In this document: positions 38,831-48,447 of the stretch, in pieces | How the letters are laid out: every line of letters begins with the position of its first letter | Numbering within the stretch: position 1 is the first letter of the stretch | Position numbers and translations under genes: made by a program | Notes under the pieces: generated by a model | Databases searched by the model: none | Seen by the model: the letters and a program-made list of their open reading frames with translations, nothing else | Told to the model about the DNA's origin: nothing | Assembly (NCBI RefSeq): GCF_024345575.1 | Contig: NZ_JAGQBJ010000010.1 | Coordinates: 48,550 to 112,549 of the forward strand | Source of the DNA: Cyanobium sp. Morenito 9A2 | Lineage (GTDB): Bacteria; Cyanobacteriota; Cyanobacteriia; PCC-6307; Cyanobiaceae | DNA length: 64,000 nucleotides | Direction: 5' to 3'

Positions 38831-39340
38831 ATGCCGGTGCTCAAGACCCTGTTCACCGCCATCGCCCTGGGCGCCCTGTTGTTAGGGGGCTGGCTCGCTT
38901 CTGCCAGTCCGAGCTGGGCGATCACCGCCCCCGAATTGCGAAGCCAGCGTTCCTTCCAAGGCCTCAGCTCCGATCTCCACGGTCAGGATCTCCACCAGCA
39001 GGAGTTCCTCAAGGCCCATCTGGCGGGTTTCAATTTCCGTGGCGCCGACCTGCGCGGTGTGGTCTTCAACAGCAGCGATCTCCAGGGCAGTGACCTCCGC
39101 GGCGCCGATCTCGAGGATGCGGTCGCCTTCGCCAGCCGCTTCGAGCGCAGCGATCTGCGCGGAGCCGTGCTGCGCAACGCGATGCTGATGCAGAGCAAGT
39201 TCCAGGGCGCGGAAATCGACGGGGCCGACTTCAGTGATGCGGTACTGGATCTGAGCCAGCGGCGTGCCCTCTGCCAGCGGGCGGATGGGGTCAACCCACG
39301 AACCGGTGTGGCCACCAGGGAAAGCCTGGAGTGCCGGTAG
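38831..39340 (+). CDS. Secreted pentapeptide-repeat protein
   Basis: 169 residues. A signal peptide (LKTLFTAIALGALLLGGWLA, in part, ending near ASPSWA) is followed by about 12 A(D/N)LXX-type repeats (FNFRGADLRGVVFNSSDLQG and on), forming a right-handed quadrilateral beta-helix. A Cys near each of the repeat ends (ALCQRA, LECR) could close the fold. Such proteins occur in the thylakoid lumen or periplasm of cyanobacteria; function is unknown. The cobalamin riboswitch follows its stop directly. Confidence 0.86.
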   Translation: MPVLKTLFTAIALGALLLGGWLASASPSWAITAPELRSQRSFQGLSSDLHGQDLHQQEFLKAHLAGFNFRGADLRGVVFNSSDLQGSDLRGADLEDAVAFASRFERSDLRGAVLRNAMLMQSKFQGAEIDGADFSDAVLDLSQRRALCQRADGVNPRTGVATRESLECR

Positions 39341-39497
39341 ATTCAGGTTTCCGGTTCCCCAGGTGATCAGCCTGGGGAGGAAACGGGGAAAGACCGGTGG
39401 GGAGTTCGCTCTGAGTCCGGCACTGTCCCGCAGCTGTGAAGACCCGTTGCCCCTGGGCAGCGATCGGTCCAGTCAGAACGCCCGCCGGTTTCGACCC
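39341..39497 (+). promoter_or_regulatory. Cobalamin (B12) riboswitch
   Basis: The core elements occur in order: GGAAACGGGGAA (39378-39389), then GAGTCCGGCACTGTCCCGCA followed by GCTGTGAA (39413-39440), and the B12-box-like CAGTCAGAACGCCCGCC (39470-39486). The boundaries are approximate. The following 40 bp before the HupE/UreJ ATG hold a GC-rich segment (GCCGG/CCGGC arms) able to form an expression hairpin. The element lies between the pentapeptide gene stop and the metal gene, so it should lower expression of the hupE-like and cobW genes when B12 is abundant. Confidence 0.93.
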
Positions 39498-39527
39498 TCC
39501 ATCTCCGGCGCGGACCGGTTTTCCCCG

Positions 39528-40172
39528 ATGACGAATCGTTCTGATGCGCCTCTGGCGCCCAGAGGCAGCCGCGCACCATCACGTTTGGCGCTTGGCGCTC
39601 TTGCCCTTCCCCTCCTGCTCCTCCTGGGCGCAGCACCCGTCTCGGCCCACCACCTGATGGGCCTCTTTCAACTCAAGCCTGGTCCCCTGGCGGGGATCCT
39701 GAGTGGTCTGGGGCACCCCGTGCTGGGCCCCGATCACCTGCTGTTCCTGCTCGCCCTTGGGCTGGCGGGTCTGCAGCAGCCCAGGCGCTGGCTGGTGGGC
39801 CTGCTGGCAACCGGGCTGGCGGCCTCAGGTCTCGGCCTTTGGTTGCCTGGCCTGCCAGGCGCCGAGGTGCTGGTGGCCCTTTCGCTCGTGGCCGTGGGCC
39901 TGGTGCTCAACGGCCGACTGCCCCGCTCGATCCTGGTGCCCGCCTTCGCGCTCCACGGCTACGTGCTCAGCGCCGCGGTGCTGGGCTGGGAGCCCACCCC
40001 GATCGCCTTCTATCTGCTGGGACTGTTGATCAGCCAGGCCTTGCTGCTCACCGCCGCTGTCACCCTGGTGCGTCGCTGGGGCAGCCGTCTCAGCCCCGCT
40101 GACACCAAGCTCGCTGCCGGGGTGCTGATCGGCATCGGCGCCAGCCTGGCCTGGACCACCGTGGTGCCCTGA
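39528..40172 (+). CDS. HupE/UreJ-family nickel/cobalt transporter
   Basis: 214 residues from ATG 39528. A signal peptide ends near SAHHLMGLF; the first mature His pair is the usual metal-binding start of HupE/UreJ proteins. GLGHPVLGPDHLLFLLALGL carries the conserved HP...DH motif, and about six membrane segments follow. Other HupE/UreJ members move Ni2+ or Co2+. Control by a B12 riboswitch and the adjoining CobW gene argue for cobalt here. Confidence 0.88.
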   Translation: MTNRSDAPLAPRGSRAPSRLALGALALPLLLLLGAAPVSAHHLMGLFQLKPGPLAGILSGLGHPVLGPDHLLFLLALGLAGLQQPRRWLVGLLATGLAASGLGLWLPGLPGAEVLVALSLVAVGLVLNGRLPRSILVPAFALHGYVLSAAVLGWEPTPIAFYLLGLLISQALLLTAAVTLVRRWGSRLSPADTKLAAGVLIGIGASLAWTTVVP

Positions 40173-40173
40173 G

Positions 40174-41283
40174 ATGGTCGCCACCCCAACCAAGCGCCTG
40201 CCCGTCACAGTCGTGACGGGCTTTCTCGGCGCGGGCAAAACCACCCTGCTCCGCCACCTGCTGCTCCACAGCGGTCTGCGGCTGGCGGTGCTGGTGAACG
40301 AATTCGGCGAAGTGGGCATCGATGGCGACCTGCTGCGCAGCTGCGGCTTCTGCCCTGAGGAGGAGCTCGATGGCCGGCTGGTGGAGCTGGCTAACGGCTG
40401 CCTCTGCTGCACGGTCCAGGACGAATTCCTGCCCACGATGCAGACCCTGCTGCTGCAGGCCGACCGCCTCGATGGAATTGTCGTCGAAACCAGTGGCCTG
40501 GCCTTGCCGGAGCCCCTGGTGCAGGCCTTTCAATGGCCCGAAATCCGCACCCGCACCCGGGTGAACGGCGTTGTGGCCGTGGTCGATGGTGAAGCCCTGG
40601 CCCAAGGGAGTGTGGTGGGTGATCCCGCCGCCCTCGAGGCCCAGCGCCAAGCTGATCCCAGCCTTGACCATCACGACGACCTGGAGGCCCTGTTCGACGA
40701 ACAGCTCGAGGCGGCGGATCTGGTGCTGGTGAGCCGCGCCGCTGGCCTCAACAGGGATCAACTGCAGGATGTGAAGCGCCGCCTGGCCCGGGCGCTGCGG
40801 CCCGGTGCCCAGGTGCTGACCATGGAGCGAGGCGTGGTGGATCCCCATCTGCTGCTCGGGTTTGAGCGGCTTGAGGGCGGCCCCCATGGAGACCTACAGG
40901 TCCAAGGTGACCACGACCACAGTGATCACCACGGTCACACCCATGTGCCGATGCAGTCGGTCACGCTCCACATCGAAGGTCGCTTCGAACGCAGCCGCCT
41001 GGAGGCCGCCTTGCTGGAGCAGATCCGCCAGCAGAGCATCCTGCGCCTCAAGGGGCGCCTGTGGCAGGCCGGTAAGCCACGCCCGTTGCAGATTCAGGCC
41101 GTTGGCCCGCGCCTGGAGTGCTGGTATGAAGCGGCCCCTGGCCCGGCAGCGACCAGCGGCCAGGAGGCCCTGGATCTGGTGGTGCTAGGCCTCGACCTCA
41201 ACAGGGATCAATTCGAAGCGGCCCTCGATCAGTCCAACGGCAGCTCTCCCCGGGCGCAGATCCCGTCCCAACAGAGCGTCTGA
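40174..41283 (+). CDS. cobW: CobW-family GTPase
   Basis: 369 residues, starting 1 bp after the transporter stop. P-loop GFLGAGKTT is at residues 16-24, the metal site CXCC is in ANGCLCCTVQDEF (about 72-84), the ETSGLALPEPL motif is near 107, and a His/Asp-rich loop (DHDHSDHHGHTH) is near 248. These are zinc- or cobalt-binding GTPase features. Riboswitch control suggests the cobalamin branch (CobW supports cobalt insertion into the corrin ring) rather than nitrile hydratase or zinc roles. Its 3' end overlaps the convergent gene by 55 bp. Confidence 0.93.
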   Translation: MVATPTKRLPVTVVTGFLGAGKTTLLRHLLLHSGLRLAVLVNEFGEVGIDGDLLRSCGFCPEEELDGRLVELANGCLCCTVQDEFLPTMQTLLLQADRLDGIVVETSGLALPEPLVQAFQWPEIRTRTRVNGVVAVVDGEALAQGSVVGDPAALEAQRQADPSLDHHDDLEALFDEQLEAADLVLVSRAAGLNRDQLQDVKRRLARALRPGAQVLTMERGVVDPHLLLGFERLEGGPHGDLQVQGDHDHSDHHGHTHVPMQSVTLHIEGRFERSRLEAALLEQIRQQSILRLKGRLWQAGKPRPLQIQAVGPRLECWYEAAPGPAATSGQEALDLVVLGLDLNRDQFEAALDQSNGSSPRAQIPSQQSV

Positions 41284-41636
41284 GCGGCGATCCAGCGGCC
41301 GCTCACCAACTGAGCCCGCGCGCCCGGACGCTGCAGCGTGACCCGGCCACTGCCGTCATGGCGGAACTCGATGCGCTCGTCTCCGACCTGCAACCTCCAG
41401 CGCACGCCTGGAGCCGACACGGTCATCACGCAGGAGCGCCAGGGTCCCTGGCCGATCCGGCAGCTCAACGGCACGTCCTCAGCTCTGGCCTGCGTTGCCA
41501 TGGCCCCCAGCACCAGACCGGGCACGAGCACCAGAGCAGACGCCAGCAGGGAGGCCGGCAACACCATCCAGGCCGCCCGGCGCAACGGGCTTCCCCACCC
41601 TCCAGGCCCGGGCTCCTCCAGTGGTGATGCGGTCAT
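41229..41636 (-). CDS. Conserved secreted protein of unknown function
   Basis: 135 residues. A signal anchor (MVLPASLLASALVLVPGLVL) precedes a small beta-rich domain with four Cys residues (LSCRIGQGPWRSC and LCWDGICARG), likely two disulfides. No family recognised. It lies tail to tail with cobW and overlaps it by 55 bp. The signal peptide and paired cysteines argue for a real exported protein. Confidence 0.62.
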   Translation of the reverse strand: MTASPLEEPGPGGWGSPLRRAAWMVLPASLLASALVLVPGLVLGAMATQARAEDVPLSCRIGQGPWRSCVMTVSAPGVRWRLQVGDERIEFRHDGSGRVTLQRPGARAQLVSGRWIAAQTLCWDGICARGELPLD

Positions 41637-41734
41637 CCCCTCGACTCCGGGGGAAGGTCTCCCTTCACGCTGAACAGTCGCGGCATCCGACGGGCGGCGG
41701 GCTGCGAAGATTTAACAAACCACCCCCAGCTCCG

Positions 41735-41992
41735 GTGCCCCTCTTTTCCGCCCGTGTGTTGGTCTCCCTGAGACCCTCGGTTCTGGATCCCGCCGGGGAG
41801 GCCACCCGCGCTGCCGCCGCCCGGCTGGGGGTCGGAGGCCTCAGGAGCTTGCGCATCGGCAAGGCCGTGGAACTGGAACTGGAGGCCCCCGATGCCGAGG
41901 CAGCCCGCGCCCAGCTGGAGCTGCTCAGCGACCGCCTCCTGGCCAATCCGGTGATTGAGAATTGGACGCTGGATCTCCAGCACCCCTCCTGA
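41735..41992 (+). CDS. purS: Phosphoribosylformylglycinamidine synthase, PurS subunit
   Basis: 85 residues from GTG 41735 ([21 protein letters not shown]), the standard PurS N-terminus. [13 protein letters not shown] and the [11 protein letters not shown]-terminus are conserved. It is a small subunit that lets PurQ and PurL form the FGAM synthetase complex in purine synthesis. It is 13 bp before purQ. Sequence upstream in the same frame is not PurS-like. Confidence 0.95.
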
Positions 41993-42005: not shown

Positions 42006-42659
42006 ATGACCCTTGGTGTGGTTGTGTTCCCCGGTTCGAACTGCGACCGGGATGTGCGCTGGGCAACGGAAGGTTGCCTTGGCCTTCCCACGCGCTTCCT
42101 TTGGCATGAGGAGCGCGACCTTTCGGGGCTGGAGGCAATCGTGCTTCCCGGTGGCTTCAGCTACGGCGACTACCTGCGCTGTGGGGCGATCGCCCGCTTT
42201 GCCCCGGTGCTGGAGGAGGTGAAGGCCTTTGCCGAGCGGGGCGGGGCGGTGCTCGGCATCTGCAACGGCTTTCAGGTGCTCACCGAACTTGGTCTGCTCC
42301 CTGGGGCGCTAACGCGGAACCGCCATCTTCACTTTCTCTGTGAGCCCTCGCGCCTGACGGTGGAGCCTGGTCCGTGCCGCTGGTTGCGTCGCTACAGCAG
42401 CGGCGAGACCATCACCCTGCCGATCGCCCACGGCGAGGGGCGCTATCAGGTCGATCCGGATCAACTCAAGATGTTGGAGGATCAGGGCTCGATCGTGCTG
42501 CGCTACGCCACCAACCCCAACGGCTCGGTGGGCGATGTGGCGGGTGTGACCAACGCGGCGGGCAATGTGCTCGGGCTGATGCCCCACCCGGAGCGGGCCT
42601 GCGATCCCGCCACCGGCGGGGTGGATGGACGACGGCTGCTCGAGAGCCTGCTGGGCTGA
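42006..42659 (+). CDS. purQ: Phosphoribosylformylglycinamidine synthase, glutaminase subunit PurQ
   Basis: 217 residues from ATG 42006. Class I glutaminase triad: Cys in [10 protein letters not shown] (about residue 87) with His and Glu in [10 protein letters not shown] (about 195-204). [10 protein letters not shown] near the start is the PurQ signature. It supplies ammonia to PurL. The stop overlaps the next ATG (TGATG). Confidence 0.97.
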
Positions 42660-43648
42660 TGGCCCTGGGGCGCCGCGAGTTCCTCCTGGCCAGTGTCAGC
42701 TCGTTGGTGGCGGGCGCCACCCAGGCCCTCCACCCAGCCGCCCAGGGAGTAGGCAACTCAGTTCCGGTTCCCAGGCTGGCCTTCCCGCCGCCCCTGACTG
42801 CCGGCAGCCACCTGGTGGCCTTCAACCCCGCCAGCCGCATTGATCGGCCTGCCCCTTGGCTCGATGGGCTGCGCCGCCGCATCGAAGCGGAAGGCTGGAA
42901 CTTGCTGGTGCCTGAGCAGGTGTTCGGCCGGCAACGTTGGTTTTCCGCAAGCGACAACCAGCGCGCCCAGGGGCTGATGCTCCTCTGGAAGGATCAAGGC
43001 GTGAACGGCGTCCTGCAGATCGGTGGTGGCTGGGGCAGCGCGCGGCTGCTGGAGGCCGGCTGGAGACAACCCCGACGCCCGCTCTGGAGTGTGGGCTTCT
43101 CCGATGCCAGCGCCCTGCTGCTGGCGCAGTTGTCGGCCGGCCTCGGTGGCGGTGTTCACGCCGGCCTCGGGGCCTGGGGCGACGACTGGCAGCGGCTTAC
43201 CGCCCTGCTGGCGGGGCGGCCCGTGGCCCCTCTGCAAGGCTGACCGGGCCGGGCGGGCCAGGCCGAAAGGCCCCTGGTGGTCACCAACCTGACGGTGGCC
43301 AGCCACCTCATCGGAACCCCCTGGTTCCCCGACCTGACCGGAGCGGTGCTGGTGTTCGAAGACGTCGGCGAAGCCCCCTACCGTGTGGATCGGCAGTTGA
43401 CCCAATGGCGCACCAGCGGAAACCTCCGCGCCGTCGCCGGGATCGGTCTGGGCCACTTCATCTGGACGCCCGAGGACCTTCAGAGCGGAGATCTGAGCCT
43501 GGAGGAGGTGCTCATGGATCGGCTCGGAGATCTTGGGATCCCGCTTGTGCTGACTTTACCCGTGGGCCATGGGAGGCCCAATGCCCCCCTGCCCCTGGGG
43601 CGTCGGGCGCGACTGGATGGAACCTCTGGCACGCTTTCGCTGCTGTGA
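42659..43648 (+). pseudogene. LD-carboxypeptidase (S66), interrupted by an in-frame TGA
   Basis: A 330-codon frame from ATG 42659 (overlapping the purQ stop) to the TGA at 43646-43648, with one internal stop, TGA at 43241-43243 (codon 195). Residues before and after it match S66 murein LD-carboxypeptidases in the same frame. The first part opens with a Tat-like signal (GRREFLLASVSS) and holds the Ser nucleophile (Ser148 in GFSDAS). The Glu (Glu234 in LVFEDVGE) and His (His304 in LPVGHG) lie after the stop. A TGG to TGA change at a Trp codon would explain it. The truncated product would be inactive; a GTG at 43277 could start the C-terminal half. Confidence 0.83.
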
Positions 43649-43732: not shown

Positions 43733-44335
43733 TTAGTTCACCGCAGCGAAAAACTCCTTGCTCTTCACCGGGTCGGGATTCATGGTCTTCTCCCCAGGGG
43801 TCCAGTTGGCGGGGCAGACCTCATCCGGGTGGGACTGCACGTACTGGAAGGCCTGAAGCACCCGCAGGGTCTCCTCGACACTGCGGCCCACGGGCAGATT
43901 GTTGATCGTGGAGTGGGTGATCACACCATCAGGATCAATGATGAACAGGCCGCGCAGGGCAATGCCAGCGTCCTCATCGAGCACGTTGTAGGCCCTGGCG
44001 ATCTCCTTCTTGAGGTCGGAGACCAGCGGATAGGCGATGTCGCCCAGGCCGCCCTGCTTGCGGTCGGTCTGCACCCAGGCCAGGTGGCTGAACTGGCTAT
44101 CGACGGAGATTCCGAGAATTTCGGTGTTGCGGCTGGTGAAATCGCCGTAACGCTCGCTGAAGGCGATGATTTCGGTGGGGCAGACGAAGGTGAAATCGAG
44201 GGGGTAGAAGAACAAAACCACATACTTGCCCCGGTACTGGGACAGGGTGACCTCCTTGAATTCCTGGTCCACCACGGCGGTGGCGGTGAAGTCGGGGGCG
44301 CTCTGGCCCACCCGGAGGGCTCCAGTGGTCGTCAT
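43733..44335 (-). CDS. Typical 2-Cys peroxiredoxin (thioredoxin peroxidase)
   Basis: 200 residues. The peroxidatic Cys sits in [19 protein letters not shown] (about residue 52), the resolving Cys in the [11 protein letters not shown] segment (about 173), and GGLG plus a C-terminal helix mark the floodgate region. It reduces hydrogen peroxide and alkyl hydroperoxides with thioredoxin. The closest equivalents are cyanobacterial Tpx/2-Cys Prx proteins. A 7-bp inverted repeat upstream of the start may be an operator. Confidence 0.96.
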
Positions 44336-46157: not shown

Positions 46158-46288
46158 GCAAATTTCCCCATCGGACAAGACCCGGTGGAGAAGCCACTAT
46201 CCCCAGGTCGGGCAGAGAGTAGCGGCTTGAACCATCCACGGCAAGTCCATGGGGTCGGATGAACGGCTGGAAACGGCGAAAAACATTG

Positions 46289-46765
46289 TCACTGCAAGAG
46301 ATCCAGCTGACGGAGGGCCTCGAACAGCACCACCCCCACGGCCACCGAAAGATTGAGGCTGCGCACCCCCCCGCCGGCCCTGGTGCCGCGGGGCATCGGG
46401 ATTGCCAGGCAGGCATCGGAGCGCTCCAGGAGGGCTACGGGCAGGCCATCGGTCTCGCGCCCGAAGAGCAGCCAGTCGTCGCTCTGAAAGGCAAATCCAT
46501 GGTGCGGGACGCTGGCCTGGCTGCTGAGGGCCACGAGGCGCCCCCCCTGCCGTTGCCGCTCATGCTCAAACCGCTCGAGGTTGAGATGGCGCTCGAGACT
46601 CACCCAAGGCCAGTAATCGAGCCCAGCACGCCTGAGCTGGCGGTCATCGATCGTGAAACCCAACGGTTCGATCAGATGCAACGGCGTACCAGTGGCCGCA
46701 CAGGTGCGCGCCACGTTGCCGGTGTTGGGGGGGATCTGGGGCTGAAACAACACCACCTGGGGCAT
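46289..46765 (-). CDS. trmL: tRNA (cytidine(34)-2'-O)-methyltransferase
   Basis: 158 residues from ATG 46765 (MPQVVLFQPQIPPNTGNVAR). The SPOUT trefoil-knot features are GRETDGLP and the AIPMPRGTRAG...RSLNLSVAVGVVLFEALRQL segment. It methylates the wobble nucleotide of tRNA-Leu. The frame extends upstream to 46822 over the end of cobU, but that part is not family-like. It starts 4 bp after the cobU stop. Confidence 0.94.
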   Translation of the reverse strand: MPQVVLFQPQIPPNTGNVARTCAATGTPLHLIEPLGFTIDDRQLRRAGLDYWPWVSLERHLNLERFEHERQRQGGRLVALSSQASVPHHGFAFQSDDWLLFGRETDGLPVALLERSDACLAIPMPRGTRAGGGVRSLNLSVAVGVVLFEALRQLDLLQ

Positions 46766-46769
46766 CGCC

Positions 46770-47315
46770 TCAGCCCTCCGGCACAGGAAGACTGCAGGCC
46801 AGCAAATCGATGGCACGGCCATGGAGCACGAGCCAAGCGGCCTGGGCCTGGGCCATCAAAAGCTGTTCCAGGCGCCCAAGACGATCGCGGAAACGGCCAC
46901 CCACCGCCGTGGCCGGCACCACGCCCCAGCCACACTCCTCCGCCACCACCAGCATCGGTGCGGTGCAGGCGCCGACCGCACTGAGCAAGGCCTGCTGCTG
47001 GAGCTCCCACTCGCCCGCGCTGAGGTCAAGGTGATAGGCCAGCCAGGTGCCCAGGGAGTCGATCAGAAGCACGTTGTGTGCGGACGCGGCGCGCAGGAAG
47101 TCGGGCAGGTCGGCCCCGACTTCCTCAAGCCGCCAGGTGCTGGGCCTGCGGGCACGGTGCCGATCGAGTCGCCGCTGCCAGTCGAGGTCCAGGGGCAAGG
47201 CGGGCCCTGTGGCGACGTAGATCACCCCGGCCTCCGCCCGGCGGGCAAGATGTTCTGCCCAGCGGCTCTTTGCGCCTCGACTCGGGCCCGTGATCAGGGT
47301 GAGCTCAGCCCCCAC
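46770..47315 (-). CDS. cobU: Adenosylcobinamide kinase/guanylyltransferase
   Basis: 181 residues from GTG 47315. The P-loop is the variant GPSRGAKSRWAE (family usually GGARSGKS), the IYVATGPA segment follows, and VLLIDSLGTWLAYHL and VVAEECGWGVVP complete the CobU fold. It activates cobinamide for the lower-ligand attachment of cobalamin or pseudocobalamin. Together with the riboswitch and CobW at 39.3-41.3 kb it shows that this organism makes or remodels cobamides. It overlaps pxcA by 11 bp. Confidence 0.92.
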   Translation of the reverse strand: MGAELTLITGPSRGAKSRWAEHLARRAEAGVIYVATGPALPLDLDWQRRLDRHRARRPSTWRLEEVGADLPDFLRAASAHNVLLIDSLGTWLAYHLDLSAGEWELQQQALLSAVGACTAPMLVVAEECGWGVVPATAVGGRFRDRLGRLEQLLMAQAQAAWLVLHGRAIDLLACSLPVPEG

Positions 47316-48447
47316 CGTTCATGTTGCGCAGGGTGGCCACCGAGGAAGGCGAGACACGGTTGAGATAACGGAAGATCCAGTACTTGAAGATCGTTGCCAG
47401 GATCACAGGGAAAGTGGCGATAAATAGCAAAACAAAGTTCTCTTCAGCTGGCAAACCGAAGTGGTGAGCGATGCCTCCCAGCAGGACTGTCCAACCCTCA
47501 GGGCTGTGAAAACCAACGAAGATGTCGGTGAATAGGATGATCGCAAACGCTTTGGCACTATCACTGAGGCCGTAAATCACTTCGTCGAGAAAACCGCGCA
47601 ACACGCGTAGCTCCTGACGTCCAAAGAGACAGACCAGCAAAAAGCCCAGCAAGCCAGCGCCGTCGGCAATGATATTTTTGATCGCATCTGAACTTTGACT
47701 ATCGGCCTCTTCCTTGAGCTCACTGGCTTTTTCGGCCAATTTCGAGCGCAACTCATCCCGATTGGGAATCTCAGCCCCCCGAAGCAGGGCGTCGAATTCA
47801 ATCTCAGACTGATAGAGGCGCAGTTGCTTGGCGGCCTCCTCCTCGAGCTGGGGACGTGGATAGGTCAGGAAGGGCAAATCGGGGGCCAAGCGATCCACCA
47901 GGGGTGAGATCACATAGGTCCGACTCACCTGCTGCACCAACACGGGCACCAGGATCAGCAGCAACAGAATGCGCAGCGACACGAGGGTGGAGTCCCGTCG
48001 GCGCCGGAAGCCGGCCACCACCGTGGCCTCCGCCTCAGGATCCAGCTGGCGACGCACACCATCGAATACCCCCAGCAGACTCCGGGGGAGCATGTCGGGA
48101 GAGCGACTGATGCTCGGCAGGGGGCTCCGCCCCAGGTAACGGGCCGTCACCGCCTCAATCAGTTGCAGCTGGCGCAGCTCCTGACCGACGAACTCCTGGC
48201 GACGGGGTTCGAGCTGGTCGAGCGCCTGGCGGCAAACCTGGAGGGCAGCACGGAAGCGGCGCAACATCTGCGCCTTGGTGGAGCGGGGAATACTGAGCTC
48301 CAGCTCAGGCCTAACCGGACGATCGTTGTAGTACTCCAGCTCAAGGCTCTGAATCAGCAGCGCGGCCTCATAGGCCCGCTCCAGATCATTGCTCAGGTCC
48401 AGGGCCTGGGCCTTGCCAAACGTTCCCATCCAATCGGTCAACCCCAT
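47305..48447 (-). CDS. pxcA: Proton extrusion protein PxcA (CemA/CotA family)
   Basis: 380 residues. A long hydrophilic N-terminal domain (about residues 1-150) is followed by a first membrane segment (LRILLLLILVPVLVQQV), a loop with QLRLYQSEIEFDALLRGAEI, and three further membrane segments ending in YWIFRYLNRVSPSSVATL. This is the CemA/PxcA form. PxcA is needed for light-induced proton release and CO2/pH homeostasis in the cytoplasmic membrane. The stop overlaps the cobU GTG by 11 bp. Confidence 0.94.
   Translation of the reverse strand: MGLTDWMGTFGKAQALDLSNDLERAYEAALLIQSLELEYYNDRPVRPELELSIPRSTKAQMLRRFRAALQVCRQALDQLEPRRQEFVGQELRQLQLIEAVTARYLGRSPLPSISRSPDMLPRSLLGVFDGVRRQLDPEAEATVVAGFRRRRDSTLVSLRILLLLILVPVLVQQVSRTYVISPLVDRLAPDLPFLTYPRPQLEEEAAKQLRLYQSEIEFDALLRGAEIPNRDELRSKLAEKASELKEEADSQSSDAIKNIIADGAGLLGFLLVCLFGRQELRVLRGFLDEVIYGLSDSAKAFAIILFTDIFVGFHSPEGWTVLLGGIAHHFGLPAEENFVLLFIATFPVILATIFKYWIFRYLNRVSPSSVATLRNMNGGG

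Follow-up and report, generated by a model that had tools for sequence, protein, structure and literature searches.

A recent in-frame TGA probably disables a purQ-linked, predicted Tat-exported LD-carboxypeptidase of Cyanobium sp. Morenito 9A2 that has an intact ispD-linked paralogue

Cytoplasmic LdcA enzymes act in cytosolic recycling. An exported enzyme is described in the part of PMC5646250 available to us, namely gonococcal LdcA (NGO1274), a serine LD-carboxypeptidase that has a Tat-dependent signal and is exported to the periplasm; the same part states a cytosolic role for the gammaproteobacterial homologues. The literature that we searched (titles and the openings of abstracts) yielded no description of a cyanobacterial Tat-exported S66 enzyme or of a purQ-linked S66 clade in picocyanobacteria, and the available portions of PMC5839243 and PMC11189452 hold nothing on a cyanobacterial Tat S66 enzyme. 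Here we describe an S66 gene in a 64,000-nucleotide stretch of the genome of Cyanobium sp. Morenito 9A2 (G000), the whole of which we call the window. The gene resembles that of gonococcal LdcA, by description rather than by sequence, in its S66 domains, its Ser/Glu/His residues and its twin-arginine N-terminus, but it comes from another phylum, has no lipobox (residues 1-30 include no Cys) and is interrupted, and its export and activity are predicted. Its domains are also those of the cytoplasmic LdcA enzymes, and the catalytic motifs of the intact protein of Cyanobium sp. ATX 6F1 (G001) align with those of solved murein tetrapeptide carboxypeptidases (5z01, 6uuk and 1zl0); unlike the cytoplasmic enzymes, members of the purQ-linked clade have a predicted export signal. 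The NCBIfam model PRK11253.1 gave 94-122 bits, against a cut-off of 378, for eight intact proteins (seven purQ-type homologues and the ispD-linked copy described below). We consider it likely that a real and recent nonsense mutation has disabled a predicted Tat-exported LD-carboxypeptidase in this organism, in which a second, ispD-linked S66 gene is intact.

The gene lies at the end of a cluster that contains purS and purQ (Table 1). It is a single frame of 330 codons that runs from an ATG to a TGA (42659-43648) and has one internal stop, an in-frame TGA at codon 195 of 329 whose next base is C. As the earlier note had proposed, the two halves are in the same frame and each holds a Pfam domain, Peptidase_S66 upstream (E 1.1e-14) and Peptidase_S66C downstream (E 2.8e-32), which rules out a chance continuation of the frame past the TGA. 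Ser148, Glu234 and His304, which we take to be the catalytic triad of the S66 family, are each invariant in all 38 aligned sequences, and they are found where the note had placed them, the serine 5' of the stop and the other two 3' of it. Both domains and the triad are thus present, and a single frame joining all three residues is absent: the gene is a broken member of the family, not a working one. The claimed purQ-ldcA order was likewise borne out, the stop codon of purQ and the start codon of the S66 gene sharing one base (TGATG, 42657-42661). Because the S66 gene is the last of the cluster and the peroxiredoxin gene beyond it is convergent, no polar effect is expected. In freshwater-type relatives the peroxiredoxin gene forms the far border of the slot behind purQ.

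Table 1. Features of the interrupted S66 locus and its neighbours (positions in the window)
Feature	Position	Strand	Basis
purS region, first gene of the cluster	41528..41992	+	Pfam PurS 4.2e-21 (scan of the translation of 41765-41989); match in Cyanobium sp. ATX 6F1 over 41528-41989
purQ, intact	42006..42659	+	NCBIfam PRK03619.1, 318.7 bits; 92% identical in Cyanobium sp. ATX 6F1
S66 gene, part before the stop: N-terminus with R5 and R6, Peptidase_S66 domain, Ser148	42659..43240	+	
Predicted Tat motif RREFLL, residues 5-10	42671..42688	+	Conservation of the motif across loci
In-frame TGA at a variable inter-domain position	43241..43243	+	Aligned column
S66 gene, part after the stop: Peptidase_S66C domain, Glu234, His304, normal TGA end	43244..43648	+	Pfam 2.8e-32; omega on its own branch far below 1
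Convergent peroxiredoxin gene	43733..44335	-	Pfam AhpC-TSA 1.2e-44

Elsewhere in the window, a Cobalamin riboswitch (RF00174, 52.1 bits, 39338-39503, forward strand) precedes a HupE/UreJ-like gene and a cobW gene (39642-41283), an arrangement that suggests cobalamin-controlled metal uptake.

The genome contains two S66 matches, the broken purQ-linked gene and an intact copy (G000:C1:78497-79441) of 315 amino acids that adjoins ispD (TIGR00453, 237.9 bits). The ispD-linked copy shares both Pfam domains with the window gene (38% identity over the first part and 62% over the second), but it belongs to a separate clade: in a tree of 68 S66 proteins, 38 purQ-type and 30 ispD-type rows were split by a branch with an SH-aLRT value of 100. 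Gene neighborhood followed the same division. A purQ match was found upstream of all 36 aligned relatives, with the first candidate start no more than 45 bases from purQ in 33 of them and 129-259 bases away in the other three (L036, L038 and L039), whereas the ispD-type loci had an IspD match in 27 of 30 cases and a purQ match in none. (A scan of genome contigs gave nine loci, of which the seven cyanobacterial ones were used and the distant L044 and L045 dropped.) The window gene is shown by these comparisons to be orthologous to the purQ-linked S66 genes of its relatives. The two clades also differ at their N-termini, a twin-arginine motif (RR.[FLIVM][FLIVM], at most 16 residues from a candidate start) being present at all 37 purQ-linked loci and at none of the 30 ispD-type loci, including the intact copy here. 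A TatC gene is encoded in the genome. No NCBIfam Tat-signal model matched the window piece or any of seven purQ-type homologues with an E value of 10 or less, the HMMER filters dropping weak short matches, and the basis of our prediction that the purQ-linked enzyme is Tat-exported is therefore the motif, together with its conservation.

In relatives that keep the purQ-linked gene intact, its product would be exported through Tat after folding in the cytoplasm. By analogy with exported gonococcal LdcA, as described in the available part of PMC5646250, it would act outside the cytoplasm on tetrapeptide stems, cleaving off the terminal D-Ala to leave tripeptides. In the window organism translation would end at codon 195 and yield an inactive fragment of 194 residues, with the serine but without the glutamate and the histidine. 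Such a loss would presumably be tolerated because either the exported activity can be dispensed with or the cytosolic paralogue partly covers it, although that copy, having no twin-arginine motif, may fail to cover an exported function.

What stood at codon 195 before the TGA? The earlier note had suggested a change from TGG, but the aligned column does not support this: none of the 36 aligned relatives has Trp there. Arg is the commonest residue (14), and it is the one found in both of the nearest relatives, Cyanobium sp. ATX 6F1 and a metagenome protein (P0002). The remaining relatives have Glu (7), Gln (4), Ile, Thr and Val (2 each) and Ser, Asp, His, Phe and Met (1 each), giving 11 residue types in total; the position is a variable linker between the two domains. 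No stops were found in the aligned part of any of the 36, and the comparison with close relatives that the note had called for thus finds the gene intact in them, Cyanobium sp. ATX 6F1 included.

To place the lesion in time we turned to codon models, fitted to 12 purQ-linked genes over 286 codons with the stop column excluded; 134 of the codons follow the stop. Over the whole gene, omega on the branch of the window gene equalled the background (0.081 in both cases), and with a separate omega for Cyanobium sp. ATX 6F1 the values were 0.087 on the window gene's branch versus 0.082 in the background. For the post-stop part (134 codons) the window gene's omega was 0.064, or 0.099 in a three-omega model that set it against 0.025 for Cyanobium sp. 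ATX 6F1 and gained 1.8 lnL units. None of these models revealed a significant rise of omega on the window gene's branch, and making that branch neutral worsened the fit by 8.0 lnL units after the stop and by 11.6 over the whole gene. An old pseudogene is thereby ruled out. With omega at the background level and neutrality rejected, the TGA must have arisen very recently, be erroneous or be read through, three possibilities that the codon models do not separate. An omega of 1 over 10% of the branch (after the stop) or over 5% (whole gene) costs about 2 lnL units; if real and not read through, the TGA has existed for no more than roughly 5-10% of the branch. The models and the intact genes of close relatives thus agree with the note's view of the lesion as recent. 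A slightly earlier relaxation of the gene would be compatible with the post-stop values of 0.099 and 0.025. Between the window and Cyanobium sp. ATX 6F1, the part after the stop shows no gap columns, and its 134 codons include 56 synonymous and 27 replacement differences. The window gene has four replacements at columns invariant in all the others, the most of any sequence (the 37 others have at most 2, with a mean of 0.57), which would fit a constraint that was starting to loosen, but this excess is only a hint because the branch is long (tips in the protein tree of 0.32 for the window gene versus 0.12 for Cyanobium sp. ATX 6F1). Changes unique to the window gene and to Cyanobium sp. ATX 6F1 stood at 17:17, 17:13, 25:15 and 23:16, depending on which of four outgroups was used; with P0002 as outgroup the ratio was 51:13, an unfair count because P0002 is nearer to Cyanobium sp. 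ATX 6F1.

Purifying selection on the part beyond the stop is also what would be seen if the TGA were read through at a useful level, so that some full-length enzyme was made, and a linker column with 11 residue types would tolerate many residues at the site. A TGA followed by C, as here, is a leaky context, and an A at the Hirsh position of tRNA-Trp is natural and common in many bacteria. The tRNA-Trp of this genome (G000:C24, L154 1498-1574, reverse strand), read by eye, has an A at position 24, the state of the Hirsh UGA-suppressor change named in the available part of PMC13092985, and here, too, it is probably natural. We nevertheless judge effective read-through to be very unlikely. No relative has a stop at this column (0 of 36), whereas a recoded gene would be expected to conserve it. 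The anticodon stem of the tRNA-Trp is a regular one of 5 bp, which rules out the shortened, 4-bp form reported, in the same part of that source, to read UGA. No anticodon TCA was found among the tRNA genes read at 40 RF00005 places, a list that may be incomplete since Ala-TGC and Ile-GAT are not in it; a search of the genome gave no match to SelA, and its 10 tRNA-Sec matches were all below the cut-off. Selenocysteine and a suppressor tRNA were rejected on these grounds. Finally, TGA is an ordinary stop here, ending 34 of 43 window ORFs counted, a set that has support in Cyanobium sp. ATX 6F1 and may include a few shadow ORFs. Read-through at a low level is possible.

The position of the TGA between the two domains might instead mark a gene split, in which two polypeptides, the second starting at a GTG at 43277, assemble into an enzyme. 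An ORF of 123 codons does begin at that GTG, but the GTG falls within the conserved stretch PLVVTNLT, part of which the second piece would therefore lack, and no stop occurs here in any of the 36 aligned relatives. We regard a functional split as scarcely credible.

A recent nonsense mutation has finally to be set against an error of sequencing or assembly, in which the isolate's gene would be intact and the TGA a wrong base in a draft of 26 contigs. The lesion is a single one of the substitution type in a gene that in other respects seems to be under selection, and the nearest relatives carry the gene intact. The truncated form, moreover, is known from one record: a protein search of 5.8 billion sequences gave 7997 candidates that were scored, and among the best 120 of 1244 hits it came from P0004 alone, the contig of the window itself; no other relative among them exceeded 74% identity. 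A base-calling error would look identical. Against this, the genome (3.10 Mb) is 99.79% complete with 0.04% contamination, and the contig gives no sign of a general error problem. When the window was compared with 120 kb of Cyanobium sp. ATX 6F1, 55 ORFs matched and 21 were flagged for stops or for matches in two frames, but apart from the S66 gene the flagged ORFs were, by eye, upstream extensions or shadow frames (46259-46984 being ambiguous), and no other mid-frame stop in a conserved sense frame was seen among the 55. The excess of replacements at invariant columns in the window gene also speaks against a wrong base. An error is, in our estimation, rather unlikely. The ambiguous ORF (46259-46984, forward strand, 241 codons) is about 55% alike in Cyanobium sp. 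ATX 6F1, has no Pfam match, overlaps an opposite-strand gene at 46773-47318 and is possibly non-coding.

How often is the purQ-linked gene broken or absent elsewhere? S66 matches were present in 276 of 300 genomes of the family, and 79 genomes (80 places, counted by eye) had a match with E below 1e-74, the next being at 9.7e-65. The window's copy was the only one among those 80 places with an internal stop. Below the cut lie broken purQ-linked copies in G284 (two stops and a frame change) and in G278 and G296 (a frame change each); these drafts are 77-87% complete, so that part of the breakage may be error. The three copies (L121, L122 and L124, in G278, G284 and G296) lie 3' of purQ in drafts of one genus. 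Among 30 PurQ loci, an S66 gene follows purQ in nine, the window included; in 10 the peroxiredoxin gene comes directly after purQ with no S66 match between them, in nine neither gene is found within 1.5 kb, and two loci end too soon.

We also placed these states on a tree of PurQ, for which 80 loci were pooled, seven being dropped because PurQ was incomplete or a duplicate and two because the state was unknown. The 71 remaining rows comprised 39 full, four broken and 28 empty slots, shares that are not frequencies because the full rows were chosen as best hits. At least 10 changes between presence and absence are required, and the four broken copies occupy four places separated by starred branches. 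Resolution is weak, with stars on 15 of the 68 inner branches; on their own, the starred branches force three changes for the purQ-peroxiredoxin empties and two for the other empties. The tree does not distinguish loss from gain, but the slot is shared by the holders, which favors loss, and we infer that the empty slots are losses. In one genus, G267 (L120, L127) holds a purQ-linked S66 gene, and the other three PurQ loci examined (G006, G062 and G089) are empty; its protein has a long branch (0.6), and retention and transfer are both conceivable.

Breakage also affects the ispD-type gene. G180 and G192 (L185 and L184), both single-contig genomes and 93% identical at the ispD-type locus, have different single in-frame stops in that copy and a stop-free purQ-type match. 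This reversal of the situation in the window suggests partial redundancy between the two genes. A weakness confined to the purQ copy is ruled out by these stops. In a third ispD-type match with a stop, that of G059, the stop lies at the extreme N-terminal end of the alignment.

The stop itself is most likely an ordinary, fresh pseudogene of a single strain. What lifts it is where it occurs, in an S66 clade found across the picocyanobacteria that is purQ-linked and predicted to be Tat-exported and whose slot may be full, broken or empty. We put forward a wider reading tentatively, as somewhat short of an even bet: that picocyanobacteria, marine and freshwater, have a pair of S66 enzymes, a cytosolic ispD-linked one and a Tat-exported purQ-linked one that trims wall peptides, and that the exported copy is disposable and has been repeatedly switched off by stops, frameshifts and clean deletion, with the window gene caught at the first step. 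If this two-compartment reading is true, the switch-offs would alter the muropeptides shed by these abundant cells. If the export prediction holds, Cyanobium sp. Morenito 9A2 and Cyanobium sp. ATX 6F1, members of one genus, would differ naturally in an extracytoplasmic LD-carboxypeptidase, a difference that would make the release of muropeptides by these cells directly testable.
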